From: Akkermansia muciniphila
Lineage (GTDB): Bacteria; Verrucomicrobiota; Verrucomicrobiia; Limisphaerales; JADLHS01
NCBI GenBank assembly: GCA_945882065.1
Contig: CAMCWI010000005.1
Coordinates: 1-43,535 of the forward strand
Reading direction: 5' to 3'
Length of the DNA: 43,535 nucleotides
The position numbers were made by a program, and so were the translations under genes. The notes under the pieces are model-generated. The model made no database searches. It was not told the DNA's origin and saw only the letters and a list, made by a program, of their open reading frames with translations. Positions 953 to 24,303 of the stretch are shown one piece after another. The stretch's first letter is position 1, and every line of letters starts with the position of its first letter.

Positions 953-3220
953 ATGAAAGCACCGCCAATCAAGTCGGTCAGGATTGTTCCGGGACCGGCG
1001 AACGGTTTGACATTTTTCAGTAGCTTGGCGGTCATGCTCTTTGCGGGAAGCTGTCTCGCCGCAGAGATCACATCATCGTGCAAGGCGGCGAAAGACCTGG
1101 CGATCCCCGATTTGAATACCGCCACGCTATCCCCCTCCCAAGCCGAGTGGCGCGCGGGGTTTGAGCAATGGCTCAAACAAAACCTGTTCAAGTCCGGGGC
1201 GGCCCCGTTTTCGTTTGATTATGATGGCAAATCTTCAAGTGAGTTCCTTTCCAGTTGGAAGTTTGCGGCCACCAAGCGGCGATTGAACCCATCTCAAAAC
1301 CAACACGTTCTGACGTACACCGACCCGAAGTCGGGGCTTGAGGTTCGTTGTGAAGCCATCGTTTTTCAGGACTATCCGGCGGTGGAATGGGTCCTGAAAT
1401 TCAAGAATACCTCCGGCCGCGAAACCCCGATCCTTTCCAACATCCAGGCCCTCGACACCAGTCTGACCGATGAGCGCAACGAATTCACGCTGCATCACGC
1501 GCTCGGAGTCGGCGAAGGCATTGTCGCGCGAAAGGAGGATTTTCGTCCGCTTAGCCGCGTCTTGGCGCCGGATTCCAAACTGCGATTCACGGCCACGAAC
1601 GGGCGATCTTCCTGGGGCGACAGTTTGCCATTCTTCAACGTGGAGTTTCCGCAGAATCGCGGCGTGATTGCCAGCATCGGGTGGACGGGGCAATGGCAGG
1701 CGGATTTCAATCGGGACGCGAAGTCTTTGAATCTACGAGCCGGGATGGAGTTGACGCACCTCAAACTTTACCCCGGTGAAGAAATCCGGAGTCCGAAGAT
1801 CATGTTGCTGTTTTGGCAAGGCCATCGCTATTACGGCCAAAACCTGCTGCGGCGGATGATCCTCGCCCACTACCATCCGCAAAAGGAGGGCCAGCCACTC
1901 GCCATGCCTTTCGCCGCCAGCGCGGCGGCTTTGTACCACGAGGCGTTCAAGGCCACCGAACAGAACCAGCTCGATTACGCCAAACAGTTCGCGCCACTCG
2001 GCGTGGAGTATTTGTGGATGGACGTCGGCTGGTTTGAACAAAGCGTGCCGAACTCCCATCTCGCACCGCCCGATCCGAAGCGTTTTCCCAAGGGGCTCAA
2101 GCCGCTCTCCGAGGACCTCCGAAAACTCAACATGGGACTCCTCGCCTGGTTTGCGCCGGAATTCCAAGGCGGTGGCTCGTGGATGGAAAAAGCCTTTCCG
2201 GAGATGTTTCTCCGCTTGAAGAACCATCCCGCAGGAATAGACCTGCTCAATCTTGGGGATCGGAATGCCTTGCAGTTCCTGCTGGATCACACCTCCGCGA
2301 TGATTGCGAAGGAAGGGATTAAGATCTACCGAATGGACGGTCCCATGGGGGCTGACTGCCCCCGCCCGCAAAAACAACCACTGCAATGGTGGCGCGACTC
2401 AGACGCTCCGGACCGGCAGGGCATGACGGAGATTCGCTACATCGAAGGGCTTTACAAGTTCTGGGACGAATTACTCAAGCGGCATCCCGGCCTGATCATT
2501 GACCTGTGCGGCGGCGGCGCGACGCGCATTGATATCGAAGCGATGTCGCGGTGCCTCTATCTCTGGCGCTCGGATTGGAATCATCCGGGCTTCGAGCCGG
2601 ATGGGGAACAATCCAAGAACTACGGCGCGAATCTTTGGCTGGCGTCCGCTGCGACGGGCAGCGGGTATCCCGAACCTTACTCGTTCCGCAGTTCCATGAA
2701 CAACGGGCTGGTCATCGCCTGGAATCCCTATCAACCCACGATCACCCAGGACTGGCCGCTCGCCTATCCCGTGAAGCAGAAGGAAGGTTACGAACTGAAG
2801 AAAGCGCCGCGCACAACGGTGGACAAGGTGGTGCGCGAAGGCTTCATGGTCACCGAACCGTTCCCGTGGGAAGCTGCCCGGCGGTTGGCGGCGGAATACA
2901 AGCGCATCCGGCATTTGTTCTACGGTGACTTTTACCCGCTCACGCCCTACAGCTCGGCGGCGGAAGATTGGATGGCTTACCAGTGTCACCGTGAGGACCT
3001 CCGTCAAGGGGCGGTGATAGCGTTTCGTCGTTCCCAGTGCATCCGCCAGCAGGCGCGCTTGAAGCTGTGGGGACTCGACGCCCGGTCGCGCTACGAAGTC
3101 CGCATCGAAGACACCGGCAAAACTCTCACCACAACCGGCAAGAAATTGGCCGAAGGATTGGACGTAACCATCACCGATCAACCTGGCTCGCAGTTGATCA
3201 CCTACCGGCAATTGCCATGA
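953..3220 (+). CDS. Secreted GH36-family alpha-galactosidase-like enzyme, divergent active site
   Basis: The ATG at 953 is preferred over the TTG at 932 because it leads directly into a signal peptide ending near GSCLAAEI; the mature enzyme would be periplasmic or exported (755 residues in all). The fold order is that of GH36: an N-terminal beta-supersandwich ([20 protein letters not shown]), a (beta/alpha)8 barrel with [16 protein letters not shown] (predicted nucleophile D462) and CGGGATRID (predicted acid/base D527), and a C-terminal beta-sandwich ([19 protein letters not shown]). Compared with the five paralogues in this window, WFEPE has become WFAPE and YRxDFN has become YRMDG, so substrate or activity may differ. 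Its stop overlaps the start of the next pseudopilin as ATGA, suggesting coupled translation. Family assignment is firm; alpha-galactosidase activity is inferred. Confidence 0.85.
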
Positions 3221-4092: not shown

Positions 4093-4106
4093 GGAATTCC
4101 TTCAGG
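4088..4106. terminator. Palindrome over two convergent stop codons, possible bidirectional terminator
   Basis: CCTGAGGAA and TTCCTTCAGG form an inverted repeat with one bulged base and almost no loop. It covers the plus-strand pseudopilin TGA (4090-4092) and the minus-strand kinase TGA (4104-4102). No strong T-run follows on either side, so a termination role is only suggested by position. Confidence 0.35.
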
Positions 4107-5484
4107 CTACTACCTGAAAATGTTCGCGCCCGCGGGCAATCGCCTCCGCAACCGAGCGGCATCGGCCACTGAACGTCCGAGCCAGAAGCAGCAGACCCAG
4201 CATCGTGTCTTCCTCCGAAGCCGCTAGGCGATGTGACGATCCCAATCGGTCGCAGATGAAACGACGCAACAAGGCTGATTTCAACGCGACGCCGCCGGAG
4301 AACACCAGCCGCGTCCAGTCCCGGCTTGGCGCGATGCGGGCGGCGCACCGGGCGTAATTGTCCGCCATGCCGGCGAACGCCGCGTGAAAGAGATGGCCCA
4401 CGGTCAGGTTTTCTTCGCGCATGCCTTGGAGGCTGCCATGGTCGCCCATCGCGCTGAAATAAAACGCCGGGTCCACCCGCAGGTCCGTGGTGAGGATCTT
4501 CGCAGCTTCCGCCTGGATATAATCCCACGGGTCCTTCAGCGGTAAACCTTGCGATTCGGCCAGTTCAGTCAGCAGGCGAATCAGGGCATTCAACGCCCGG
4601 CCGCCGGGAATGTGCGTGATGGTCTTGAGGTAGCGTCCATCAAACCAAGGGCGTGTCTGGAAATCACCCGCTTCGTATCCGCGCGCCAGTTGGATGACCG
4701 CCGAGCCGGTGGAAATGTTGACGGACAATTCACCTTCTTGCAGCAGCGCCCCAATCTGCGAGCAATGGTAGTCGCCGACCGGCGCGTGAACCGGAATATC
4801 GCGTTGACCGAACCGAAAGCGGCCAACGACGGCGCCCTGCGCAACGATCTCCGGCCAGCGCACTCCGTTAAGTTCGAACTTTTTGATAACGGGTTGGTGC
4901 CACGTGGACGTCTGGACATTGAGTGCGCCGTGGGCAGCGGCGCGCGTCACATCGGTGGTGGGAGCACAACCGCACAAGTTCGCTACCACAAATCCCGGCA
5001 AGTCCGCCGCCAGGACAGGCTGTGCCGGTAAATTGCCGTTTTGGGCGAGCCAGTGCAGGAAACACAGCGGCACGCCCGGGCGCGGTTCATTCCCGAGGTC
5101 CCGACGTTCCTCGGGCGTGAGACGGTGGTTCACTTCATCGAAATACGTGCCGCCGCCCGCGGGAGATTTCTCCAAGGCGCGTTGGTCTTGCCAACTGATG
5201 AAGTTCGAGACGGCGCGGCCATCGTCGGTGCTGAACACCAGCCCGTGAAGCTGGCTGCAACAGACGATGCCTTCGGCATCCGGCGCGTGACGCAGCAATC
5301 GTTCGAGTAACGCGCGTGTGGCTGTGACGATTTGTGCCGGATCGAATTCGCGAAAAGAAGTTCGGAGTCCGGGGATCGGTTCGGGGAAAGGAGAACGCTC
5401 AACGTGGCGGATGCTCCAGTTGTCAAGTTCCAGCACCGCGCCCTTGATGAAGGTCGTGCCCAAGTCTATGCCGATGCATTTCAC
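4102..5484 (-). CDS. FGGY-family carbohydrate kinase, possibly sedoheptulokinase-like
   Basis: The GTG at 5484 opens VKCIGIDLGTTFIKGAV, the phosphate-1 motif of the FGGY/actin-like ATPase fold. The 315 bases upstream in the ORF track have no kinase character. The 460-residue product has the N-terminal FGGY lobe (ISWQDQRA, CCSQLHGLVFS), the catalytic-region segment GDYHCSQIGALL, NISTGSAVIQL, and a C-terminal lobe with LVFSGGVALKSALLRR (adenosine-binding GG). It should phosphorylate a sugar in the cytoplasm using ATP. The GDxxCS pattern recalls sedoheptulokinase. The neighbouring GlpX-type phosphatase, a class that often also acts on sedoheptulose bisphosphate, would fit, but xylulose, rhamnulose or another sugar cannot be excluded. 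It lies 131 bases downstream of glpX on the same strand, probably the last gene of the operon. Confidence 0.8.
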   Translation of the reverse strand: MKCIGIDLGTTFIKGAVLELDNWSIRHVERSPFPEPIPGLRTSFREFDPAQIVTATRALLERLLRHAPDAEGIVCCSQLHGLVFSTDDGRAVSNFISWQDQRALEKSPAGGGTYFDEVNHRLTPEERRDLGNEPRPGVPLCFLHWLAQNGNLPAQPVLAADLPGFVVANLCGCAPTTDVTRAAAHGALNVQTSTWHQPVIKKFELNGVRWPEIVAQGAVVGRFRFGQRDIPVHAPVGDYHCSQIGALLQEGELSVNISTGSAVIQLARGYEAGDFQTRPWFDGRYLKTITHIPGGRALNALIRLLTELAESQGLPLKDPWDYIQAEAAKILTTDLRVDPAFYFSAMGDHGSLQGMREENLTVGHLFHAAFAGMADNYARCAARIAPSRDWTRLVFSGGVALKSALLRRFICDRLGSSHRLAASEEDTMLGLLLLARTFSGRCRSVAEAIARGREHFQVVA

Positions 5485-5615
5485 GATGTTTGGATTGCGG
5501 CTACGGGGTTGAAGATTTTTGGGGACTGCTGGCGACGAACGCCACGATTGTTTGTGATCTGAATTCCCCTCGCCGCAAAAGGAATGTATAGCGAGGAGGC
5601 GGGGCGGCCTGGCTT

Positions 5616-6695
5616 TCAGATCAGGCAGTCCCGCTGACCGGAACGTAGGTGAATAGTCTTGTTTTCGAGATCGTGGACGGCGCGAATGTAACGCACGGTT
5701 CGGCTTTTTGCGCGCATCAAAAGCGAGTGGGTAATCGCCGTCTTGCCCAGCAATTTCACCCCGGGCACCAATGGGCTGTCGGAGATGCCCGTGGCGCAAA
5801 AGATGGCACTATCCCCCGGCACGATTTCTTGCGTGCAATAAACCTTGGTCAATTGCGCATCGGGGAGACCGCCTCCCAGTTTTTGCCGCTCCGTCACGCT
5901 GCGAAACCACATCCGCATTTGGATCTCACCTCCCAGTGCCCGCAAAGCTGTCGCGGCTAAAATGCCTTCCGGTGTTCCGCCAATGCCCACGTAGAGATCT
6001 ACTCCCGAATCAGGCAGTGCCGGCGCAACCGCTGCCGCAATATCTCCGTCGGAAATCATGCGTAGCGTCGCTCCCGCCTCGCGAACCTGATTGACAAAAG
6101 CTTCATTGCGATCACGATCCAAAATCAGGACTACCAAATCCCGCACCCGCTTATCCAATGCACCGCCGACGAAATTCAACGTCTCAGCCAGTGGTCGGTC
6201 AAGCCAGTTTTCTGACGTACTGAATTTTCCCATGGCCTGCGCCACCTGGCGTCCATAGGCCAGTTTGTGGGAGTAATATGAGGGCAGAGCCAGCATGCGC
6301 ATTCCTTCACCCTCAACCGCCTGTGCGGCGCCAATGACCGAAATAGAATTGGCCATGCCGCGGGCGACATTTCGGGTGCCGTCAATGGGGTCAAGCGCAA
6401 TGTCGAAACAAGTTGAGCCTGGCTTCCAGTTGCCCAGTCGCTCGCCCTGGAAAATTCCCGGGGCATCATCCTTTTCACCCTCCCCGCTGACCACCTCGCC
6501 ACAGAGGTTGACTTGATCAAAGGTGCCGCGAATGGCGTCACAAGCGGCAGCATCAGCTTGTTCCTTATCACCGCGCCCGACCCAGTGGATTGCATTCAGG
6601 GCCGCGTTCTCGGTGGCGCGGACAAATTCAAATTCGATGGAACGTTCCGGATCACGTTCGGTGTCAGGAGATTCCGGGATTGATTCTTTATTCAT
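5616..6695 (-). CDS. glpX: Class II fructose-1,6-bisphosphatase
   Basis: The 359-residue product matches GlpX throughout. It has ATENAALNAIHWVGRGDKEQAD near residue 27, the metal-binding VVSGEGEKDDAP and ALDPIDGTRNVARGMAN, then ISDGDIAAA and GIGGTPEGILAA. These correspond to the Li-sensitive, divalent-metal phosphatase fold that hydrolyses fructose 1,6-bisphosphate to fructose 6-phosphate in gluconeogenesis; several GlpX enzymes also act on sedoheptulose 1,7-bisphosphate. The ATG at 6695 overlaps the stop of the upstream adenylate kinase-like gene by four bases (ATGA), so the two are co-transcribed and probably translationally coupled. The N-terminus carries a short charged extension (NKESIPESPDTERDPERS) before the conserved core. 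Confidence 0.93.
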   Translation of the reverse strand: MNKESIPESPDTERDPERSIEFEFVRATENAALNAIHWVGRGDKEQADAAACDAIRGTFDQVNLCGEVVSGEGEKDDAPGIFQGERLGNWKPGSTCFDIALDPIDGTRNVARGMANSISVIGAAQAVEGEGMRMLALPSYYSHKLAYGRQVAQAMGKFSTSENWLDRPLAETLNFVGGALDKRVRDLVVLILDRDRNEAFVNQVREAGATLRMISDGDIAAAVAPALPDSGVDLYVGIGGTPEGILAATALRALGGEIQMRMWFRSVTERQKLGGGLPDAQLTKVYCTQEIVPGDSAIFCATGISDSPLVPGVKLLGKTAITHSLLMRAKSRTVRYIRAVHDLENKTIHLRSGQRDCLI

Positions 6696-7321
6696 GTCAG
6701 GTTGTGGATGTGTCCAAGTATTTCGTGCAGGACTGCGGCTGGCGGATGGTCGGCAACGACGGTGCGAACCAAATCAGGCGGGTAGAAGTTTAACAGGGGT
6801 TGGGACGTCCGTTCAAAAACTTCCAGCCGACGCATGATTACGTCGTCTTTGGCATCGTCCAGCCGGTTCTCTCGCAGGGCTCGGCGACGGAGGCGCTCAA
6901 CAAGCTCTACTGTTTGGTCGCATCGGAGATGAAAGACACCTCTGACTTGGATGATGTCGCTGAGTAACGACGCCTGAGCCAGATTGCGTGGAATGCCATC
7001 CAACAGCAGCATGTCCTTTCCTGGTTGATACGCTGCGCTCTGCACGCAGTTGTCGAGGTAGCTTTGCCAGAGTTTGATTGTGATTTCATCCGGCACCAGC
7101 TCGCCCCGGCTGGAAAAACTGGCGACCATTTGGCCGAGCGGACTGGTGGGAGTGATGGACCGGAACACCTCGCCGCAAGCGCAGTGAAAAAAACCCGGAA
7201 GGGCACCGAGGGCCCGGCCTTGGGTGCCTTTGCCGCAACCGGGCGCACCGAGCAGGATGAAGGCTTCGTGTTTTCTCGCTCTGTTCGGTTGCGTGGCGAA
7301 CATTGACATCGGTTTGTTCAT
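6692..7321 (-). CDS. Adenylate kinase-like nucleoside monophosphate kinase lacking the LID domain
   Basis: The P-loop GAPGCGKGTQ, the NMP-binding region with CGEVFRS, LLDGIPRNLAQA (LLDGFPRTxxQA in canonical Adk) and NRLDDAKDDVIMRRLEVFERTSQPLLNFY identify an adenylate kinase-family enzyme. Between the RLRRRA arginines and the DD motif only a few residues remain where long bacterial Adk has a roughly 35-residue LID, so this is a short form. The ATG at 7321 (MNKPMSMF) is chosen over the TTG at 7336; further in-frame ATGs at 7309 and 7303 are possible. Product about 209 residues, cytoplasmic. It is the first gene of the glpX-kinase operon. Whether it phosphorylates AMP or another monophosphate cannot be read from the sequence. 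Confidence 0.8.
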   Translation of the reverse strand: MNKPMSMFATQPNRARKHEAFILLGAPGCGKGTQGRALGALPGFFHCACGEVFRSITPTSPLGQMVASFSSRGELVPDEITIKLWQSYLDNCVQSAAYQPGKDMLLLDGIPRNLAQASLLSDIIQVRGVFHLRCDQTVELVERLRRRALRENRLDDAKDDVIMRRLEVFERTSQPLLNFYPPDLVRTVVADHPPAAVLHEILGHIHNLT

Positions 7322-7696
7322 ACTTCTCACGATCAAGGTTTCCGCGCTGATAATACTGGAACGGGAAGGCCATGCTTCTGATATTTGGGGAAAGTGCGAC
7401 GGTTTTCTTGAATCTTTACCGGTCTGAACTCGAACTCCGAAATAGCAAGCCGCCTACAACGGAGATGCGCACCGCCGCAGAGTGAGCTCGTCCTCGGGCG
7501 CAGCGACCTACGCCAACCAAGTCACAGGATGTTTTCAAACGCTCTTCATGCCACGTTACCGTGGCCGAGAACGCACACTCCGTGCGTCGCGGTATCCCTC
7601 TTCGGAATTCGGTCAGAGTCAATGGCGGGAAACACCAAACGTAATGAACGACCGCTTGTTGGCAATGCCCGACATGGAACCACTGTCGGCGGCTCT
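7322..7696. other. Intergenic region without a convincing gene
   Basis: Short ORFs here on both strands show no recognisable domain, start context or conserved pattern. The left part should contain the promoter of the adenylate kinase-glpX-kinase operon, but I see no clear -35/-10 pair. The right part receives the end of the large GH36 transcript. The middle holds two adjacent perfect hairpins, listed separately. Confidence 0.5.
7550..7587. repeat. Two adjacent perfect hairpins (REP-like or RNA structure)
   Basis: GCCACG-TTAC-CGTGGC (7550-7565) and ACGCAC-ACTCC-GTGCGT (7571-7587) are two perfect six-base stems five bases apart in non-coding DNA. There is no T-run after either, so an intrinsic terminator is unlikely. 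Paired small hairpins like this are typical of REP-type intergenic elements, but no second copy was seen in the window. Confidence 0.4.
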
Positions 7697-10600
7697 CTAA
7701 GGCGAAAGCCGTCGATATTTGACGGTCGTTGCTTCCGGTGGCGTGGCCACTCTTACTACCACCCCGTCATTCATTAGCTGCCGGCCAGTCGCGGTGTTGG
7801 TGGTGGCTAACTCGAAATTGATCACCTGATAGGTCGCTCCCGATTGGAGACCTTGCAGCCGCAGGCCGATGCTCGGCGTGAGATTGCTCGCGCGGCGGAA
7901 AGCTTGGACGATTCCTTCGTTGAGGTCGGCGCGGTGGAACTGCCACGCGATCCAATCAACGTTGTTGGTTGAATAAGGCGTGAGCGGATAGAAATCGCCG
8001 GAGAACAAATGATTCAGCGAGGCAAAATTGGCGAGCTGGTTTTTGAGCGGAGTCCAGAAGGCCGCGCCCGGTGTGTAATAATCGAAAGCGTAAGTGCCCC
8101 AACTCCCCATGCCGCTGCGGAAATCATTGTTGGCGGTGCTGACGCCACCCTGACCGATCATAGGTAGCCAATGCGATAGTGCGTGCGTCATCGCCTGTGC
8201 GCCCACCACTTCCCAGAGATAATCCGTGCGCAGCAGTGGCACGAGACGACGATACATCTCGAAATCGAGCCGTCGCCCGCCGCTGGCGGAATTGTCCATC
8301 AGCAGGCCGGGATGATTTTGCTGGAGCGTGTCGAAGTACTCGTAGAGGCCCATCACGTAGCGAATTTCATTCATGCCTTTGCGATCCGCTGCCTCGCCGG
8401 TTCGCCAATACCAGAGCGGGTGCATGTTGAAATCGTGCCGGTAAATATCAATTCCCCAGTTGGTGATGATCGCGGAGAAGTTGGTCTTGGCCCAGTTCAA
8501 CGCAGTGGGATTGCCGAGGTTCAACATCCGCCAGCCATCGTTTTGTTGGTAGGCATATTCCGGCGGCATGCCGCTCGGAGTGAGCAACCAATCGGCATGA
8601 TTCGTCCGCAGCCAGGTGTTCGGCATCACGCGCTCCGGCTCGAACCAAAGCAGGAAGCGCAGGCCGTTCGTATGCGCACACTGGCTCACCGGCGCGAGGC
8701 CATTCGGGAAACGAGCCGGATCGGGGATGTTGTTGCCCTGACCCGTGGCGAAACCGCCGATTTCCCACCCCGCATCAATCCAGTACGTGTCCACCGGCAG
8801 TTGTTTCTGGATGATGTTGGTGATCGCCTGAATTTGATTCGTCACGGTGACGTTGTTGAAGCCGAGGGTCGCGCCGGATGCGGCGATCGGGAGGTCAATC
8901 GGCAGACCGTTCGGGCGCGGTGAATAATGCTCGAGCAACAGTCGCCGCAATTGTCGCTGCCCCTCCAGCCAATCGCCTTCGTAACTCAGCGTGAGCACCG
9001 CGGGCGTGCGGATGCGCTCGCCAGCGTCGAGGCGCAGATTGAAGTCCTCCATCCCAATGCGCACCGTGAGGTTCGTGCCCGAATCGCGGACGAAGGAGGC
9101 CTTCCATTGCCCGGTCCAGCCCACGGCCACGATCAGTCCACCGCCGCCGGGCTTGGCGATGTTGAAGAAGGGCATCACGCCGTCGGACGATCTTCCGCCC
9201 ACGGGAGCGAAGTTCATGGTGGAGTTTGGCAGTAGCGTTGCCGTGCGCGGCTGGAAGTCCGTGATGATCGCCGTGCTGCCGTCCGCGTAGTGAAGCGTGA
9301 ACTCGCCACTGTTATCGCGGCCCAGCGCAATCTCGCCGGCCCACACGTTCGAAAGAATTTCACTACTGGGAAGTGGAATCGTGGGCCCGACGACTTGGAA
9401 TCCGTTCACGACCGAGGTGCCGCTTTGCTCGCCGGTCGCCGAAACCACCAGTTGCCCGTTGGCATTGGCCTGACTGGTGAAGTGAACGAAGTCACGTCCT
9501 GCGGCGAACGGTGTGCCGGAACCAGCCGTGGCCGTCTTGGTTGCGCTACCGTTCACGCTGAATACGCCACCGGCCGTGCTGCCATCATTGGAAGCGAGCA
9601 AGAAGAGTTCGTAAGTCGCGCCCGCTGTCAATCCGCGCAGGGTCAACGTCGCCGTGCCGCTCGACATCGAAACGTAGTCCTCAAACAAATTATGAACTCC
9701 GTAATTACCCGAGGTCGAGCGGTCCGCGCCACTGAATCCGCTGAATAGCAGGTTGAGGGACGACGCGGCTCCGTTGCCCGCGACGAATCCACTGCTCGGC
9801 GATGGGCTGTTCGGCGACGTGTAGTTGATCAATGTACCGTTCCACAAATTACCGCCCGCCGGCCCGCCGCCGGAGTACGTCGTCGGCGTCGGGTCGAGCA
9901 GCCCCTTGCCGTTCAAGTCTACGGAGATCGTCGTGTTCGTCACGATGTCGTGTTGAACTTGGTCCACGCGCAGGTAGGCCGGCTGCACATTGGGCGAGAT
10001 CCGAATGCAGTCGAAGCCGCTGCTGACATTGCGAAAGCCATAGAAGTTGTTGGAATTGGCGACGCCGACCATCGCCGTCGCAGAACTCACGACCACGCCG
10101 TTCCGCAGCGCCTCGAACAGAGCCGAAGTTGCGCCGCCATCCACCACGAGCGCGAAGGCCGCGTTTGTTTGCGGCCGCGTGAAATAAATCGGCAGCGCCG
10201 GCTGGGTGAATCCTCCGCCAAACGGTTGGTAATTGAGCACCTGGCCGCCGGAGACATTTCCCGAAAGCGCATTGTCCCAGTAAACCGGCGTCGCGGCGTC
10301 GAAGAACAGGCCACGGTCCGAATATTCCGTGATGATCCGTGTCGCCGGATTGCCCGAAGCCGGCACGTTGTAGGCGTGTTCGGAAAACGTCACCGTCGTG
10401 GGTGGGTTGGTCAGGCCAAAATCATTCTGGAAAAACTCCGCCGCGACGGGCGGGTTCTCAAACCACAGCTTCCATTCGCGTGCCGGATAATCGGCGAACT
10501 CGACGGAATCAACCTGGAACTTGAAACCGTCGCCCGGTTTCGTGTAGGTGCGAACCCGCTGGGTGCGATTTGAATCCAAAACCGTCACGACTTCGCCAAC

Positions 10601-11965
10601 CGGCCAGGAATTGGTGATCGAGCTGGCTGAGGTGGTGCCGAAATTGAAGGCAAATCCCGCCGCTGGTGCCGGCGTAGCGGGCAACGGCGCGGTGCGGAAG
10701 TAGGTGGCGGGATTCGTGAGCGGCACGGTGGCGGCGAACTGGCTGGCATTGGAACTGACCCCGTGCGGCGAAACCGCCCACAGCGCAAGATTGCTGCTTT
10801 GCTGAAGTTGTGCCGCGCCCGCCGCGCCCGGCCACGACACTACCGCGTTACTTCCCTGAAGGGCGATGGCGAGCAGCTTCACCGACGGATCATCCAGAAA
10901 CGCTGCCGGCATTGGGGTGATGACTGGAAGCCCACTGGCCTTGATCAACACATAATCAACCTGACAGTCCGAAATGATTCCCGCGCCGAGAATTCCCGCG
11001 CGAAATCCGGCGTAGCCCGAACGAGCGGGAGAAAAATCCCAGCTCACCTGCCAGGTGGTCGGCTCGGGCGTGTCGCCGTCAGCGAGCCAGACTTTCGCGA
11101 ACGCGTCCGGGCCGCTGGCGTTGGGCGATTGTAGCAGGCGCAGCCAGTACCACACGTTCGTTGTCCATGCCGTGTTCAGCGAAGGACCGAACTCCGTGTA
11201 ATCGCTGAGGAATCGGAAGTGGCGTTGTCCCGGCCCACCGTAAGCCCCGGCGTTGTAGAGACTCATATTCAACCCACCGCGCACCGGCAAACTCCAACTG
11301 TTGGCCGGCACGCCGAGGGCGATCCCCGCGAAGGCATCCGCCTGTAAACTCACATTGGCCATCTTGATTCGCGCGAGCACCTCCTGGGTCGAGCCGTTGT
11401 AGGCCGGGTTGACGTAAATTAGATGATTCGGATCGCCGCTCCCTGCGCATAGATTCAGAAAACCGCCGGCCTGAGCGTAAACATCGGGACCAATAGCCAC
11501 CCAATTGGTATCGCGCGTGGGCGCGTTGAAGTCATCCTGAAATCCGCTTGCGGTCGTCCCCATTTCCACTGGTAAAAACGCGGCGAGACTCACGGTGACG
11601 TTCGCGTTGAACAAAGTCTGGTTGAGCGCCAGATTCTGAACACCGTTTACGACCAACGTCGGAGATGGGCCAAGATCAATTGCGCTCGTCGTCAGCACGA
11701 CATTCGAACTCGTCGCCCCCATCTGCGCGCTAAGGACGCTCGCCCGCTCAACGAAATAGTTACCCGCCACCGTTGCAGACGTCGGGCTAACCGCTTCCGA
11801 GAATGTTACTGTCACCTTGGTGTGATCCACCCAACCGCGCCGCACGGCGGTAACCGTCATGGCCTCAGTCGGGAGAAGCGCACCCAACATCGCGAGGCCC
11901 GCAAGCCACCTTGAAAACCACCTGAAAGTTCCTCCCCGGCAGGCATGGTTGGTGATTTTGTGCAT
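7697..11965 (-). CDS. Giant secreted multidomain GH36 alpha-galactosidase-like protein
   Basis: The 1422-residue product starts with a signal peptide (to about residue 35, ending near PTEA). Next come an SbsA-type Ig-like domain (about 36-137; VDHTKVTVTFSEAVSP), a LamG/concanavalin-like domain (about 140-345) and a short VVSWP...LQQSSNLALW module. The GH36 N-terminal beta-sandwich starts near 430 and is interrupted after WKLWFENPP (504-506). About 360 extra residues follow, including repeats like LRGLTAGATYELFLLASN, before the sandwich resumes at EILSNVW (869). The barrel carries WIDAGW, WFEPERV, IYRHDFNM (nucleophile D1178) and SASGGRRLD (acid/base D1234). The Cys of the usual DSCASGG is Ser here. 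The C-terminal domain ends in VKYRRLSP. It should be an exported enzyme with extra carbohydrate- or surface-binding modules. It is the last gene of the minus-strand GH locus. Confidence 0.88.
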   Translation of the reverse strand: MHKITNHACRGGTFRWFSRWLAGLAMLGALLPTEAMTVTAVRRGWVDHTKVTVTFSEAVSPTSATVAGNYFVERASVLSAQMGATSSNVVLTTSAIDLGPSPTLVVNGVQNLALNQTLFNANVTVSLAAFLPVEMGTTASGFQDDFNAPTRDTNWVAIGPDVYAQAGGFLNLCAGSGDPNHLIYVNPAYNGSTQEVLARIKMANVSLQADAFAGIALGVPANSWSLPVRGGLNMSLYNAGAYGGPGQRHFRFLSDYTEFGPSLNTAWTTNVWYWLRLLQSPNASGPDAFAKVWLADGDTPEPTTWQVSWDFSPARSGYAGFRAGILGAGIISDCQVDYVLIKASGLPVITPMPAAFLDDPSVKLLAIALQGSNAVVSWPGAAGAAQLQQSSNLALWAVSPHGVSSNASQFAATVPLTNPATYFRTAPLPATPAPAAGFAFNFGTTSASSITNSWPVGEVVTVLDSNRTQRVRTYTKPGDGFKFQVDSVEFADYPAREWKLWFENPPVAAEFFQNDFGLTNPPTTVTFSEHAYNVPASGNPATRIITEYSDRGLFFDAATPVYWDNALSGNVSGGQVLNYQPFGGGFTQPALPIYFTRPQTNAAFALVVDGGATSALFEALRNGVVVSSATAMVGVANSNNFYGFRNVSSGFDCIRISPNVQPAYLRVDQVQHDIVTNTTISVDLNGKGLLDPTPTTYSGGGPAGGNLWNGTLINYTSPNSPSPSSGFVAGNGAASSLNLLFSGFSGADRSTSGNYGVHNLFEDYVSMSSGTATLTLRGLTAGATYELFLLASNDGSTAGGVFSVNGSATKTATAGSGTPFAAGRDFVHFTSQANANGQLVVSATGEQSGTSVVNGFQVVGPTIPLPSSEILSNVWAGEIALGRDNSGEFTLHYADGSTAIITDFQPRTATLLPNSTMNFAPVGGRSSDGVMPFFNIAKPGGGGLIVAVGWTGQWKASFVRDSGTNLTVRIGMEDFNLRLDAGERIRTPAVLTLSYEGDWLEGQRQLRRLLLEHYSPRPNGLPIDLPIAASGATLGFNNVTVTNQIQAITNIIQKQLPVDTYWIDAGWEIGGFATGQGNNIPDPARFPNGLAPVSQCAHTNGLRFLLWFEPERVMPNTWLRTNHADWLLTPSGMPPEYAYQQNDGWRMLNLGNPTALNWAKTNFSAIITNWGIDIYRHDFNMHPLWYWRTGEAADRKGMNEIRYVMGLYEYFDTLQQNHPGLLMDNSASGGRRLDFEMYRRLVPLLRTDYLWEVVGAQAMTHALSHWLPMIGQGGVSTANNDFRSGMGSWGTYAFDYYTPGAAFWTPLKNQLANFASLNHLFSGDFYPLTPYSTNNVDWIAWQFHRADLNEGIVQAFRRASNLTPSIGLRLQGLQSGATYQVINFELATTNTATGRQLMNDGVVVRVATPPEATTVKYRRLSP

Positions 11966-12405: not shown

Positions 12406-14508
12406 TCACTTGACGACTTTCAGCACGAGCACTGCGGCGGCGGGTTTCTCGCGCAAGGTGATGTCGAGGCCGCGCATGAGTTCCGCGCCCGTGCGCGTTT
12501 CCTTGCCGCCATCGAGGTTTTCGATTTCGTAGGTCGCGTTGGCATCAAGGCCGCGGAGTTTTACGGTGAGCGTTTCATTCGCGGCTTCGGAACGGCGGAA
12601 GGCCTGGATCACACCGCCGCCGTTTTCCGGCGTGTGAAACTGCCACGCGATCCATTGGTCCGTGGCCCGGTTATAGGGCGTGAGCGGATAGTAGTCGCCC
12701 TCGATCATGTGCGGCGCCACGGTTCGGAATTCGTCGTAGGCTTTCTTGGCCACAGGCAGCGATGCGGCATGCATGCCAAAACCCGGCATGATAAGACTCC
12801 GGTATTCGTAAGGCTCCTGAAAGCGCGAAAGCCCGCCAAAAAACGGCAACCAGAAGGAGAGCCCGTAGGTCTGCCCTTGGAAGCCCTCGAATTTATCGGC
12901 ATCTGTGGTCATTTCATAATCGGAGCGCAGCAGGGGCACGGCGCGGCGCATGGATTCCAAGTCGTTGCGCCTGCCCCCCGAAGCGCACGAGTCGATGAGC
13001 AGTCCCGGCTTGCGCGCCCGCAGGGTATCCCACAGCGCGAGATGGCCCTGAATATAGAAATTCTCAGTCAGGCCGGCCCGCGGCAATCCGATTTCACCCT
13101 TCTCAACCTCGTCGTTCTTGCGCCACACTTCGTAGGGTCCCGGTCCGTTGAAGTCCTCGCGATACCAATCGAGTTTCTGCCGCTCGATTATCGTGGAAAG
13201 ATGGTCTTCGAGCCACGACACGGCCGCGGGATCGCCGAGGTTGAAGTAGGATCCACACTCTGTGCCATGCAACAACCACTTGGGGTGTTCAGTGGCCAAC
13301 ACCGGCCGATCATAGGCCCCGGGCGCGGAGTTGGTGTAGCCAATGCGCTCCGGCTCGAACCAGAGGACTGTCTTCATACCATGCTGCCGAGCCCAGTCTC
13401 CGAAGGGAGCAAAGCCCTTGGGAAATTTCACAGGATCCGGCTCCCAGAAGCCAGTGGTGTTGAGGAAGACTAGTGAAGCCAGTGGTGTTTTGGCGAATGG
13501 CAGGGGCTCGGGTTTGACCCACCAACCGTCGCCTGCATCCATCCAGCAAATGTCGGGCTTGATTCCCGCATCAAGGAGCCTCTGGAGCCGGGGATTTTCC
13601 GATTCGAGGAGCAGTGTCTGCTCATTCCAGAGCGGCCCTTGCCGGCCGCCCTCGGGATGGGGCATGACCTCCTCCCGATACCACCGGCGCCATAGGTTCT
13701 GCGCGATTTCCCAATCCCCACCCTTCCAGAACAGCATAGTCGCCGACGGAAACCGCACCTTCTCGCCGGGCTTGAGCCGGAACTCCGACCTTTCCTGGCC
13801 CGCCTGCCAACGCATACCGCCGTTCTCCGCGCTGAAAGTGGCCGACCAATTCCCGGGCCAGCCCAGGACCAAGATCCGGCCTTCATTGCCGGGGCCGGCC
13901 AAGTTGAAATAAGGCCAACCGTCGCGCCCGTGGGTCGATTTGCCACTGGGTCCCGGACTGAAAATCCGGGTCATGCCCGGCTTGGCTTGCCATTCGTAGG
14001 GGGCAAAGCTATTGGCACTGCAACTGTCGCCCTCGATCCCGTGCAGAGTGAACTCGGAGCCTTCGAAAAAAACGTCCGCCGTCTGCAACCCGCGCAGTTC
14101 GGGGGAGTTCCCTCCTCCGTTGTTTTGAAGAAAAGCCGTCCATTCGACCACCGGCCAGTTCTGGTATGTGATGATTTCCACCCGCAACTCCAGACCTGTT
14201 GCCGGATCGCGACGACGCAAAACCGTGGTCTCCTTGCCGTCGTCGGCACGGTGCTCGGCGGGCAGAGTGCTCCACCCGGCGAGAAAATCGCGGGAAGGCT
14301 TTCCCTCCAGCGAGAAAGAAATCGGCCAACGGGCAGGGTCTGCTGCGTTCCAGAATGATTTCGCCCAAGCTTGGCTGGCTTCAGCATCTGCCGCCGAGGA
14401 TGCCTTGTCATCGGACGGACGCCGCTCAGATTTATTTGTCTGATTGCAACCGGCCAATCCAATGAGCAGCACCAAGAAAGTGGTGGGGAGTGTGAGGGTG
14501 GGTTTCAT
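12406..14508 (-). CDS. GH36 alpha-galactosidase-like lipoprotein
   Basis: The 700-residue product begins MKPTLTLPTTFLVLLIGLAGC, a lipoprotein signal with lipobox LAGC, so the enzyme should be anchored in a membrane facing the periplasm or exterior. The GH36 order follows: supersandwich (GLELRVEIITYQNWPVVEW), barrel with CWMDAGDGWW, WFEPERIG, DWYREDFN (nucleophile D452) and DSCASGGRRND (acid/base D516), then the C-terminal sandwich (GDYYPLTPYNRATDQWIAWQF). Compared with its paralogues it has an insertion after the DAG motif (VKPEPLPFAKTPLASLVFLN). It lies 38 bases downstream of the Ig/sulfatase chimera and 39 bases upstream of the small remnant ORF. The preceding sulfatase tail implies that this pair descends from a sulfatase-GH36 unit like 31025-27369. 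Confidence 0.9.
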   Translation of the reverse strand: MKPTLTLPTTFLVLLIGLAGCNQTNKSERRPSDDKASSAADAEASQAWAKSFWNAADPARWPISFSLEGKPSRDFLAGWSTLPAEHRADDGKETTVLRRRDPATGLELRVEIITYQNWPVVEWTAFLQNNGGGNSPELRGLQTADVFFEGSEFTLHGIEGDSCSANSFAPYEWQAKPGMTRIFSPGPSGKSTHGRDGWPYFNLAGPGNEGRILVLGWPGNWSATFSAENGGMRWQAGQERSEFRLKPGEKVRFPSATMLFWKGGDWEIAQNLWRRWYREEVMPHPEGGRQGPLWNEQTLLLESENPRLQRLLDAGIKPDICWMDAGDGWWVKPEPLPFAKTPLASLVFLNTTGFWEPDPVKFPKGFAPFGDWARQHGMKTVLWFEPERIGYTNSAPGAYDRPVLATEHPKWLLHGTECGSYFNLGDPAAVSWLEDHLSTIIERQKLDWYREDFNGPGPYEVWRKNDEVEKGEIGLPRAGLTENFYIQGHLALWDTLRARKPGLLIDSCASGGRRNDLESMRRAVPLLRSDYEMTTDADKFEGFQGQTYGLSFWLPFFGGLSRFQEPYEYRSLIMPGFGMHAASLPVAKKAYDEFRTVAPHMIEGDYYPLTPYNRATDQWIAWQFHTPENGGGVIQAFRRSEAANETLTVKLRGLDANATYEIENLDGGKETRTGAELMRGLDITLREKPAAAVLVLKVVK

Positions 14509-14545: not shown

Positions 14546-14932
14546 CTATTTCTGGCGTTTCGGCAGATGCGGCAGCAGCTTGTCGAAGAGGGCTTGCTGC
14601 TCTTTTAGCACCGCGGCGAGACTCACGGTGGCGCTCGCATTGATCAAGGTTTGGCTGAGCGCCAGGTTCTGAACGCCGTTCACCGCCAACGTCGGAGCTG
14701 GGCCAAGATCTATGGAACTCACGGTCAGCACGACGTTGGAGCTGGTCGCACCGAGCTGCGCGCTGAGAACAGTAGCGCGTTCGACGGAATAATATTCCGG
14801 GGCCGTTGCGGACGCGGGGCTGACGACCTCGGAGAATGTCACGGTCACTTTGGAATGATCCACCCAGCTCCGTCGGGCCGAAACGATGTTGAGCGCGTGC
14901 GCCGTGAAGCTTCCGCTGACGATGGTCAGCAT
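14546..14932 (-). pseudogene. Chimeric ORF: Ig-like domain joined to a sulfatase C-terminus
   Basis: The 128-residue frame starts with a short signal-like segment (MLTIVSGSFTAHA). Residues of about 15-110 match the Ig-like domain of the giant GH36 protein closely (WVDHSKVTVTFSEVVSP, GATSSNVVLT, NGVQNLAL). The last 20 or so residues (EQQALFDKLLPHLPKRQK) are instead the C-terminus of the sulfatase at 29409 (EQKDLFDKLLPHLPKRLD). The switch occurs at AAVL, where both parents share the bases GCCGC. Everything between, meaning the enzyme part of both parents, is gone. The product could be a small exported Ig-like domain, but it is best read as a deletion chimera. Confidence 0.8.
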
Positions 14933-19843: not shown

Positions 19844-21922
19844 TTATTTCGCGACGCGATAGGATATCACCACTGCGCCCGGTGCCTTCGGAAGCTGAAC
19901 AGTTAGTCCTTCGCTCATCAGTTGCTTGCCGGATGCCTTGGTCGAGCCGGTCACATCAAAGTCCGTAAGTTGGTATTGCGCCGCCGGGTCAAGGCCACGG
20001 AGACGGAAGGTCATCGTCGACGCTTCGGCCTGCGCCCGGCGGAACGCCTGGACCACGCCGTCGCCCTGCTCCGGCCGGTCGAACTGCCAGGCGATCCACT
20101 GGTCCAGCGCCAGACTATAGTCGGTCAGCGGGTAGTAGTCGCCCAGCATCAAGGGGCCGACTTTGCGGCACTCGCGGTACGCTTTTTTCTGCGCTTCGAC
20201 TGTAGCGGAGTCGAGTCCGCCCATTCCAAACAGCGGCATGTAGGAACTCCGATAGGAATACGGATCATAAAAATAGCAGCCGTTTCCGTAAAACGGCAGC
20301 CAAAACGAAAGGCCATACGTATGAGCCTGGGCTGCTTCCACGACTCCCTTCATGTCGGGAAACTGGAAATCGCTGCGGGTCAAAGGCACAGCCCGGCGCA
20401 TGGTTTCGAGGTCGTTGCGACGGCCACCCGACGCGCAGGAATCGATACGCAGGCCCGGGTTGCGCCGCACGATTTCATCCCAGAACTTGAGATGTCCTTG
20501 AACATAGAAATTCTCGAGGATGCCCTGGCGATCCGGAGCATCGTTTTTGCGCCAACCGGGCATGGGGCCTTCACCGTTCATATCTTCGCGATACCAATCG
20601 AGCCGCTGGGATTTGATCATGCCGTCAATGTGGTTGATGAGCCAATCGAGTGCGGCGGGATCGCCCAGGTTAAGAATGCCGCCTTGGGCGTTGCAGGGGA
20701 GAACCCATTCGGGATGGTTGCGTCCGAGCCAAGTTTCCATGCTGCCGACGCGCTCCGGTTCAAACCAGAGGAGGAACTGCATGCCGTGTTGGTGCGCCCA
20801 ATCGCTGAAGGGGCGGAAACCTTTGGGAAACTTCCTGGGATCGATTTCCCAAGTGCCTGTGTTGAGCCATTCCCATTCGCCCTTCCAGGGTTGCATGTCG
20901 CTGGGATACCATGTCTTGCCGCCCGCGCCGGCGTCGCGCCAACAGAGGTCCGGATGAATTCCAGCGTCCAGAAACTTCTGCACTCGCGCGATGTCATCTT
21001 CTCCGCCATCAACCTGGATTTGAGTGATCGCTTCCTGGGTTTTCCCATTCACGCGGGGCATGTTGTGCGCAATGTACCAACGCCGCCAAAGGTTTTGCGA
21101 AGCCACGAGGTCCTTGTTCTCGGTGAAGAGAAATGCGGTCAGCGGGGTGCGGATTTCTTCACCAGGCTTGAGATACAGACGCGTCGAATCCTGCCCCGCG
21201 ACGACCCGCAAGCTGTTGCCTGAATCCCTGATAAAGGAGGCGGCCCACTGTCCCGGCCATCCAACGGCGATGAGTAGCCGTCCCTCGGGCAGGAGTAGGT
21301 TCCAATAGGGCCAACCATCAGGACCAGAGGTTGATTTTCCCAGGTGCTGACTGGGCGTGAACTTCTTGACGGCTCCGGGTCCAAGCGCGACCTGATAGGG
21401 TTGGAAGCTCTCCGCCACGGTCCAGTCTCCTTTAATCCCGTTGAGGACAAAATCACTGGCCTCCTGGTGAAACGACGTGTCCAGACTCTGGATTTTCTCA
21501 AGCATCGGCGTGTTTGCGGTGCCGGTGTTCTTGAGATAGACCGTCCACTCAAGCGCCGCGTAGTCGGAGTAGGTTACCGATACGCACCGGATACTAAGGC
21601 CGGTTTTGGAATCCAGCCAGGTGATTGTGTGTTCGGTGCGAGCGGGGTCGAGCTTTCTCACTTCAGAGGTTTTGGTCCATGTGGAAAGAAGGGCTTGGGA
21701 GTCTTTCCCATCGTAAATGAACGAAAACGGCAGGTCGGCGTTCCGGCCAAACAGATGGGCGTTCGCCCAACGATCCTTTTCGCTTCTTGCCTGGGGGGTG
21801 GCAGGACCGGAGAGATGCGAGCAGCCAGAGATAAAAAGCAGGCCAAGGGCCCAAACGCAAATACTCAGGCAAACCTTGGATCTTATGCCTTTGGTATTTC
21901 CTGCAGCTGGATTGGTTTTCAT
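19844..21922 (-). CDS. GH36 alpha-galactosidase-like lipoprotein
   Basis: The ATG at 21922 (MKTNPAAGNTKG) leads to a lipoprotein signal, ICVWALGLLFISGC; a start four codons earlier at 21934 is also possible. The 692-residue protein shows the supersandwich (GLSIRCVSVTYSDYAALEW), a barrel with CWRDAGAGG, WFEPERVG, DWYREDMN (nucleophile D447) and DSCASGGRRND (acid/base D504), and a C-terminal sandwich (DYYPLTDYSLALDQWIAWQFDRP). It is closest to the paralogue at 27369-29402: both have CWRDAG, DWYREDMNGEGP and a DMKGVVE segment, unlike the other copies. It would act at the cell envelope. It starts 41 bases after the GH141-like gene and probably shares its transcript. Confidence 0.9.
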   Translation of the reverse strand: MKTNPAAGNTKGIRSKVCLSICVWALGLLFISGCSHLSGPATPQARSEKDRWANAHLFGRNADLPFSFIYDGKDSQALLSTWTKTSEVRKLDPARTEHTITWLDSKTGLSIRCVSVTYSDYAALEWTVYLKNTGTANTPMLEKIQSLDTSFHQEASDFVLNGIKGDWTVAESFQPYQVALGPGAVKKFTPSQHLGKSTSGPDGWPYWNLLLPEGRLLIAVGWPGQWAASFIRDSGNSLRVVAGQDSTRLYLKPGEEIRTPLTAFLFTENKDLVASQNLWRRWYIAHNMPRVNGKTQEAITQIQVDGGEDDIARVQKFLDAGIHPDLCWRDAGAGGKTWYPSDMQPWKGEWEWLNTGTWEIDPRKFPKGFRPFSDWAHQHGMQFLLWFEPERVGSMETWLGRNHPEWVLPCNAQGGILNLGDPAALDWLINHIDGMIKSQRLDWYREDMNGEGPMPGWRKNDAPDRQGILENFYVQGHLKFWDEIVRRNPGLRIDSCASGGRRNDLETMRRAVPLTRSDFQFPDMKGVVEAAQAHTYGLSFWLPFYGNGCYFYDPYSYRSSYMPLFGMGGLDSATVEAQKKAYRECRKVGPLMLGDYYPLTDYSLALDQWIAWQFDRPEQGDGVVQAFRRAQAEASTMTFRLRGLDPAAQYQLTDFDVTGSTKASGKQLMSEGLTVQLPKAPGAVVISYRVAK

Positions 21923-21963
21923 AGAGACTGTCATAAGGTGATGATGCATTGTTCTTGGTGAAA

Positions 21964-24303
21964 TCAGTTTCGCGCCTTCTGGTAGGTGATCCAGACCACG
22001 CCCGGTTCTGCTGCCAAATCCAGGGAGACACCTTTGCCCATGAATTCCTTTCCTTTCAAACGGGGTCCTACCGACAAGGGAATGCTCCTTACGTCGGAAA
22101 GAATTGGCAGCTTGCCTACAGACGTGAGATAGGTTGTGAACAGGTTGGTGTCGCAGGTGCCAAAGAATGTGCCCTCGTAAAACGCTTTGGTGGCCGGCGC
22201 CAGTCTTCCCGCATACGCTTTGCATTCATAATCAGCTGAGGACTGCAATGCCCGCGGAGATAGCGCTATATTTTGCGCATCGCCCGCCTTCCTGCGAACG
22301 ACCTGGATGACACCGCGGTTACGATCGGGGAGATCAAACTGACAAGCTGCCCAGGCGCGGTCCATCGAAAGGTCCGTCAGTTCGTAGAACTCACAAGCGC
22401 CGCCCTTTTCGTTCAACAGCAAGCGTCGGTAGGCTGGTTCCAGTCCCGCCCAGGCTTGCATCACCTCAACAAATTCGGCCGGGGGAGTGCCGTTTTTCTG
22501 GAGGAAATTGTCGCGCCAGACATTATTCGTGTCCTGGGAATTGAAAAGCAACGGGCCTCCCTCATTGCGATAGACGACATTGTTCTCGTAGCGGCATCCG
22601 GTGTTATTGCCGTCCAAATAGAGGCCATGACAGGCTTTGGTGTCCAGAATGCCACTTGCGACGGTTCCTCGACCAAAAGCATTCCATTGAGTGTCGTGTA
22701 CCAAGTTGCCACGGATTCGGGTACCATTTCCATAATTGGCGAAAGTAACGTAGAGACCGGCACCATCGACGGTGGTTTTCATGGCGTTATAGACGTGGTT
22801 AAAGTCGATGGAATTATTTTTTGCGAATTTCACCTGGGGATACTGGCTGCCGGCAACGATGATCCCGCAATAGGCGACATCATGCACCAGGTTGTGCGCT
22901 ATAGTCGAATCCTGCGCCAGATAGAGCGAAATTCCCGTAGCCCCGAAGTAGTCCGTCCCGACATGATGGATGTAGTTATTGGCGACGACATAGCTCTTGT
23001 AATCGTCCGCTTTTGGTGGTGGGGAGGCGTAGAGGTATCCCCCGGCGACATTACAGCCGCCGACGCCAATTCCGCCGCCGCCCAGGTCACAGATCTCGTT
23101 TCCTTCAATTCGGTTAAACCCTGTTCCGTCGCGGACGCAGATCGCCATTGCACCGACGTGGGAGATCTCACCCTTCAGGAAATGGCAATTGCGGGCATTT
23201 TCGAATTCCACGGCTGCCTCGATGAAGCGGTGCCCGACTTTGTCTTTGGTGCCAGTAGCGACGTTGCAGCTGAAGAGACCGCTATAGCCCCAGGCTGGCA
23301 GGGGCCAGTCCACGTGCATAACGCGGATACCTTCGAACGTGAGGTTGAGCACAGGCCGTTCTGGCGTGCCGACAACAGCCAGCAAAGTGTTTCTTACCAC
23401 AGTCGCCACCACCTCGACCCGGGCAAGGTCCTCACCAGCCCTGGGCCAGTAGGAAAGAACTCCTGTATGGGTATCCAAATACCACTCGCTGGGCTGGTCC
23501 AACATTTCGAGGGCATTTTCGACATAACAGGGTTTGCCTGTGGTTGGGGCGCTGAGATGCCAGTCATTGCCAAAAACCTTGGGGTTCCACCGGTGCGGCG
23601 GTGCAACGACCAGTTTCTGGGCGTCAACGTCCACACTCTGAAGCCTCTTTCGACCTCCCTCGTTATTGTAATTGCAGATTAATTCTACCTGATCTGGGTT
23701 GCTCCAGGTGACAATGGGGCCATCCACAGTGACGGTAAACGGCTCTTCCTCTGATTCGGTGAGAACAGCGGTGCGGATAAGCCACCAGGGTTTTTGCGCA
23801 TCGATGTTCGGGGTGCGAGCGCGAACGGCGCGCCGGCTATCTATGAATAACTGGCGGAATTGCCAGTCGCCGGATTTTACCTCGGGAATCTCAACCGTCC
23901 AAATGTCGCCAATCCCCTTTTTCCATCCGGTGATTAGCCGACCACCACTGAGGTCGACCCGTTCACCGGGAGCAGCGGCGTAGGTGATGGAATGCTGGGT
24001 CGTGCCGGAGTCCTCGGGCCCGAAAGTCAGCGTCTCCAGCTGACGATAAGTCCCCCCGCTAATCTGGACCCAAATGTTTTCGCTAAGTCCGGCGGCGATT
24101 TTCTGGCGTACTGCGTCGCGGGCACCTGCGAGGGTGGCGAAAGGGGACTTAGCGGTTCCAGGGTTTGTGTCCTTTCCATCGGTGGCTACGCAAAAGTCGG
24201 GCTTTGAGGGAGCAGCCAGGCAAGCAATCGCAGTGACAGAGAGAAAGAACAGACCAAACGAGAGGCCACTTCGCGAAAGGATTTGGAGACTGAACTTATT
24301 CAT
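21964..24303 (-). CDS. Secreted GH141-like right-handed beta-helix protein with a GH36-type C-terminal domain
   Basis: The 779-residue product starts with a signal peptide (LFFLSVTAIACLAA). FCVATDGKDTNPGTAKSPFATLAGARDAV follows, the usual opening of beta-helix glycosidases related to GH141. Residues of about 330-640 carry many N- and G-rich helix rungs (HRFIEAAVEFENARNCHF, GNEICDLGGGGIGVGGC, NNYIHHVGTDYFGATGI). From about 655 on the sequence changes to YELTDLSMDRAWAACQFDLPDR, GVIQVVRR and LKGKEFMGKGVSLDL, which matches the C-terminal beta-sandwich of the GH36 enzymes next door. GH141 members include alpha-L-fucosidases and xylanases, so removal of fucose or a similar branch is plausible. A strong ribosome-binding site (AAGGAG) overlaps the end of the upstream GH2 gene. 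Confidence 0.82.
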   Translation of the reverse strand: MNKFSLQILSRSGLSFGLFFLSVTAIACLAAPSKPDFCVATDGKDTNPGTAKSPFATLAGARDAVRQKIAAGLSENIWVQISGGTYRQLETLTFGPEDSGTTQHSITYAAAPGERVDLSGGRLITGWKKGIGDIWTVEIPEVKSGDWQFRQLFIDSRRAVRARTPNIDAQKPWWLIRTAVLTESEEEPFTVTVDGPIVTWSNPDQVELICNYNNEGGRKRLQSVDVDAQKLVVAPPHRWNPKVFGNDWHLSAPTTGKPCYVENALEMLDQPSEWYLDTHTGVLSYWPRAGEDLARVEVVATVVRNTLLAVVGTPERPVLNLTFEGIRVMHVDWPLPAWGYSGLFSCNVATGTKDKVGHRFIEAAVEFENARNCHFLKGEISHVGAMAICVRDGTGFNRIEGNEICDLGGGGIGVGGCNVAGGYLYASPPPKADDYKSYVVANNYIHHVGTDYFGATGISLYLAQDSTIAHNLVHDVAYCGIIVAGSQYPQVKFAKNNSIDFNHVYNAMKTTVDGAGLYVTFANYGNGTRIRGNLVHDTQWNAFGRGTVASGILDTKACHGLYLDGNNTGCRYENNVVYRNEGGPLLFNSQDTNNVWRDNFLQKNGTPPAEFVEVMQAWAGLEPAYRRLLLNEKGGACEFYELTDLSMDRAWAACQFDLPDRNRGVIQVVRRKAGDAQNIALSPRALQSSADYECKAYAGRLAPATKAFYEGTFFGTCDTNLFTTYLTSVGKLPILSDVRSIPLSVGPRLKGKEFMGKGVSLDLAAEPGVVWITYQKARN

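Follow-up and report, generated by a model that had tools for sequence, protein, structure and literature searches.

The glycosidase P0001, encoded on the minus strand at positions 7697-11965 of the 43,535-nucleotide stretch of DNA that we analyzed (the window), appears to be a secreted GH36 enzyme that carries a nested, putatively carbohydrate-binding pair of modules, A and B, inside its N-terminal beta-sandwich. We give this reading a probability of roughly 60%. The GH36 N-terminal sandwich tolerates a nested insert of 363 residues at a defined hairpin loop, and the arrangement is retained across two families of one order.

P0001 (1422 amino acids) belongs to GH36 according to Pfam. The Melibiase match (E 9e-24; 84.5 bits, curated cut-off 27) marks the catalytic barrel at residues 1045-1238 (8252-8833, minus strand) and includes the nucleophile position D1178, while the Glyco_hydro_36C match (E 1e-10; 42.1 bits, cut-off 27) marks the C-terminal domain at residues 1338-1405 (7751-7954, minus strand). 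The acid/base candidate D1248 (8222-8224) lies slightly past the end of the Melibiase match. Both aspartates are invariant across the paralogue alignment and, via the paralogue profile, align with the KWDMN and TSD positions of solved GH36 enzymes. P0001 shares its N-terminal sandwich, barrel, C-terminal domain and both catalytic aspartates with AgaA/AgaB (4fn*), LaMel36A (2xn*) and AgaSK (2yfn). Unlike P0001, these enzymes have no insert in the hairpin loop and, as solved alpha-galactosidases, read DDGW where P0001 reads DAGW, so its specificity may differ from theirs. The only NCBIfam match, weak and partial, was to a beta-L-arabinopyranosidase model; it scored 34.9 bits, with the cut-off at 1100. 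An N-terminal signal recognized by eye predicts that the protein is secreted. It is followed by an N-terminal extension (residues 37-433; 10667-11857, minus strand) that looks beta-rich by eye and is 47-57% identical to that of the G159 ortholog; a family search with this extension gave zero matches.

The Pfam model of the GH36 N-terminal domain, Glyco_hydro_36N, did not match P0001 with or without the insert, and matched paralogues weakly, for example P0005 (E 1.6e-4, under the curated cut-off). A profile of the sandwich derived from 28 intact GH36 relatives matched P0001 in two pieces. The first half of the sandwich is found at residues 436-504 (10454-10660, minus strand; profile positions 11-79, 35 bits, i-E 3.3e-10) and the second half at residues 868-1013 (8927-9364, minus strand; profile positions 85-229, 143 bits, i-E 2.9e-43). 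As the two matches are in order and flank a gap, we assign residues 505-867 (363 residues; 9365-10453, minus strand) to the insert. None of 500 shuffled copies of P0001 was reported against the profile at E values up to 10. Independently, BLAST paired residues 434-505 with a window paralogue at 1196-1411 (E 2e-8). MAFFT in generalised-affine mode placed the first half at residues 434-506 against all 32 relatives tested, and its default mode recovered this placement in some sets. Alignments in which MAFFT misplaced the first half were left out of the modelling, and the one used was vetted via conserved columns. The original prediction had located the insert at 9361-10456, which agrees with the computed boundaries to a few bases, and had recognized it from the strand motif WKLWFENPP, whose partner EILSNVW indeed appears only about 360 residues further on. 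In all 33 GH36 relatives examined, which come from the window itself and from the best hits across 146 related genomes, the insert is absent and a loop of a few residues joins the two strands; in the paralogues this short loop reads FKN-TGxxDT-PIL.

Structure modelling led to the same picture. In an AlphaFold2 model of residues 430-1422 (993 residues, mean pLDDT 71.7) the first half of the sandwich reached a pLDDT of about 88-97, and the second half and the barrel were mostly above 85. The insert was modelled with low confidence (pLDDT mostly 23-58) because just three alignment rows covered it. Compared with the GH36 enzyme AgaA (4fnt), model residues 1-991 aligned at full length (Z 31.5, rmsd 3.2, 603 residues). 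Together with the two-piece profile match, this bears out the proposal that two halves of one GH36 sandwich flank the insert and rules out that the first half is an unrelated domain. The insertion point corresponds to the hairpin loop following N171 of LaMel36A (2xn0) or N167 of AgaB (4fnq), as found by aligning the relatives' profile to the solved chains and counting residue numbers off the alignment. Since both halves are conserved and confidently modelled, the sandwich would still close around the insert.

The insert had been expected to hold one or two beta-rich domains, and it consists of two such modules, A (residues about 507-675; 9941-10447, minus strand) and B (residues about 676-862; 9380-9940, minus strand). 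Pfam, NCBIfam and PDB sequence searches named no CBM for either module, and module A had no match in these libraries. Module A is beta-rich, and its model is of low confidence. A resemblance to CBM29 (Z 6.9 over 95-96 residues) was discarded as the module A model is too poor to rely on. Foldseek matches of the insert alone were mixed, of low TM and mostly to large multi-domain proteins, and were set aside. Module B was better defined when the insert was modelled alone with an alignment of module-B relatives from other genomes (AlphaFold2 pLDDT mostly 65-92). The domain search named no sequence family for the insert, and it is fold comparison that places module B near malectin and CBM35. Its modelled beta-sandwich resembles malectin-like ectodomains (Z 11.3, best match ANXUR2), a C-terminal domain from GH2 beta-glucuronidases (Z 11.1), the carbohydrate-binding domain 8x8h of a pectate lyase (Z 8.9) and the CBM35 2w1w (Z 7.8). 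Judged by Z scores of 7-9 against carbohydrate-binding domains, CBM35 among them, and of 11 against malectin-like domains, the model has a fold typical of CBMs. Module B is like malectin and CBM35-like domains by this comparison and unlike them in sequence, by which it belongs to no described family. PDB sequence matches to FnIII domains mostly span about 30 of its 185 positions (GL..A.Y); we therefore take them as a common strand motif and reject an FnIII assignment.

A module-B profile retrieved related modules elsewhere, and module B emerges as a recurrent verrucomicrobial module on GH36, GH5 and CBM-bearing proteins that has no Pfam or NCBIfam name. In two genomes its homologues lie N-terminal to GH5 cellulases, and one homologue protein also carries CBM35, CBM6 and F5/8-type C matches. 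Weak, sub-threshold CBM matches were seen in some module-B homologues only, none of which reached a curated cut-off. Further homologues accompany beta-propellers (NHL, DUF5122), and module B may for this reason not be specific for sugars. A protein of 1568 amino acids at L087 (G517:C15:149000-161000) combines two tandem module-B homologues with CBM35/CBM6-like and F5/8 type C matches.

How might a GH36 enzyme benefit from such an insert? We propose that its N-terminal sandwich took up A-B as a tandem pair of accessory beta-sandwiches in one hairpin loop, and that module B, and probably module A as well, would bind glycan and keep the polymer close to the enzyme, much as CBM4 does in nested GH10 xylanases and CBM58 in SusG. 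Glycan binding is the most likely role of A-B judging from the modelled fold of module B and the company that it keeps, and the glycoside-hydrolase-rich locus with its sulfatase also supports it. Counting against it, no CBM match reached a curated cut-off, and the malectin/CBM35 fold also binds proteins, as in the ANXUR receptors. If module B does bind glycan, it would be a candidate for a new CBM family, and the loop would offer a natural insertion site for GH36 engineering. A bolder version, in which A and B are two undescribed CBM families that form the first nested tandem carbohydrate-binding unit in a GH36 sandwich, with the loop as a docking site that opens polymers to a small-oligosaccharide enzyme, we regard as possible and no better than tentative.

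In AgaSK, the N- and C-terminal regions of neighbouring subunits partly form the pocket (PMC7688924), so the insert of P0001 could exert an effect at the active site, and we infer that A-B may influence enzyme activity. The same architecture leaves room for a purely structural role, which we consider rather unlikely: the 363 added residues could change how oligomers assemble, or could cover the active site, and thereby determine the size of substrate, with no glycan binding of their own. A precedent is the PA14 insert of a GH3 enzyme: no sugar contact was found for it in the model, and its suggested role is to make the active-site cleft deeper (PMC6987092). However, module B is also fused to GH5 and found beside CBMs as a separate accessory module, which fits binding better than a structural role peculiar to GH36. 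A role of A-B in adhesion or in protein-protein contact at the cell surface is less probable again. Malectin-like domains do work in plant receptors, among them ANXUR as the best fold match of module B, and the NHL and DUF5122 propellers that accompany its homologues would suit such a role, but carbohydrate enzymes make up the locus and several of the module-B partners.

The insert is present in homologues, as the original prediction had suggested looking for. A full-length ortholog of 1528 amino acids from another family (G159:C86) is 56-57% identical to P0001 over modules A and B and 64-65% identical over the second half of the sandwich and the barrel. An ortholog from another genus of the same family (G011:C522) is 90% identical over the insert; it is partial because its contig terminates within the insert. 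The idea of a chimeric assembly or of an insertion in decay can be dismissed for this segment, as nothing was found in its favour, even with an assembly fragmented into 348 contigs, whereas the orthologs in two other genomes, one of them full-length and diverged, carry the insert and refute an assembly error, and the frame is open, with a dN/dS of about 0.06 and an insert GC3 close to that of the flanks. Between G000 and G011 the dN/dS was 0.061 for module A (in part), 0.067 for module B and 0.051 for GH36, and by this sequence measure both inserted modules are under purifying selection. Of 320 genomes from the order, 3 carry the insert; among 387 genomes sampled evenly across the phylum, the whole insert was found in G000 alone, the genome of P0001 itself, and a full-length relative was not found in a plasmid collection. 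In a tree of the catalytic part the three insert-bearing proteins form one clade (support 98/95), adjoined by L013 and L014, both of which are without the insert and 45-47% identical to P0001.

Nested accessory modules are already known from GH10, GH13 and GH3 enzymes, and P0001 most likely shows the same principle in a new host fold, the GH36 N-terminal sandwich. The description of a mid-sandwich insertion as unusual holds for GH36 (3 of 36 sequences compared) and not for glycoside hydrolases at large, in which nested binding modules are well documented (PMC7848910; PMC6987092). A search of the open-access literature surfaced no described GH36 case of nested modules. Among the closest parallels are the GH10 xylanases Xyn10C and Pm25, in whose TIM barrel a CBM4 pair is nested between beta3 and alpha3 (PMC7848910). 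These enzymes likewise place tandem accessory beta-sandwiches within an enzyme domain of a polysaccharide-degrading enzyme, but there the barrel is interrupted, whereas in P0001 it is the N-terminal beta-sandwich and glycan binding is putative. The GH3 beta-glucosidases KmBglI, DesR and RmBgl3B (PMC6987092) also nest a non-catalytic beta domain in a domain other than the barrel, with proposed effects on substrate range; they differ in enzyme family, in the inserted fold (PA14) and in having one inserted domain instead of two. In SusG, CBM58 is inserted in domain B of a GH13 amylase (PMC7848910). Like P0001 this is a secreted glycosidase with a nested module, in this case in the amylase B domain of a starch enzyme.

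The surroundings of P0001 are rich in glycoside hydrolase genes. Positions 932-31079 of the window hold six GH36 genes, with GH141-like, GH2 and sulfatase genes nearby and with enolase-superfamily, lactonase, MFS and FGGY-kinase genes as further neighbours, a gene content that suggests a locus for sugar-acid breakdown, perhaps for a sulfated glycan. At 14600-14920 on the minus strand lies an open frame of 132 codons that shares 66% identity with P0001 residues 27-133 and then continues into an unrelated short tail (EQQALFDKLLPHLPKRQK). Lying immediately upstream of another GH36 gene (12406-14508), it looks like the remains of a duplicate P0001 N-terminus. The GH141-like beta-helix protein (21964-24303, minus strand) has a C-terminus (about 22222-22395) that is related to the GH36 C-terminal region of P0001 (residues 1323-1381, E 5.8e-4), and the end of its gene runs into the predicted start of the next GH36 gene (19844-22225). 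Two neighbouring genes of the window, the GH36 gene (995-3214) and the gene of the FGGY kinase (4105-5574), are also retained in the G011 genome. In the window, FBPase (glpX) and adenylate-kinase-like genes (5616-7336) separate this kinase from P0001, and on G011:C522 the kinase directly adjoins the P0001 ortholog.
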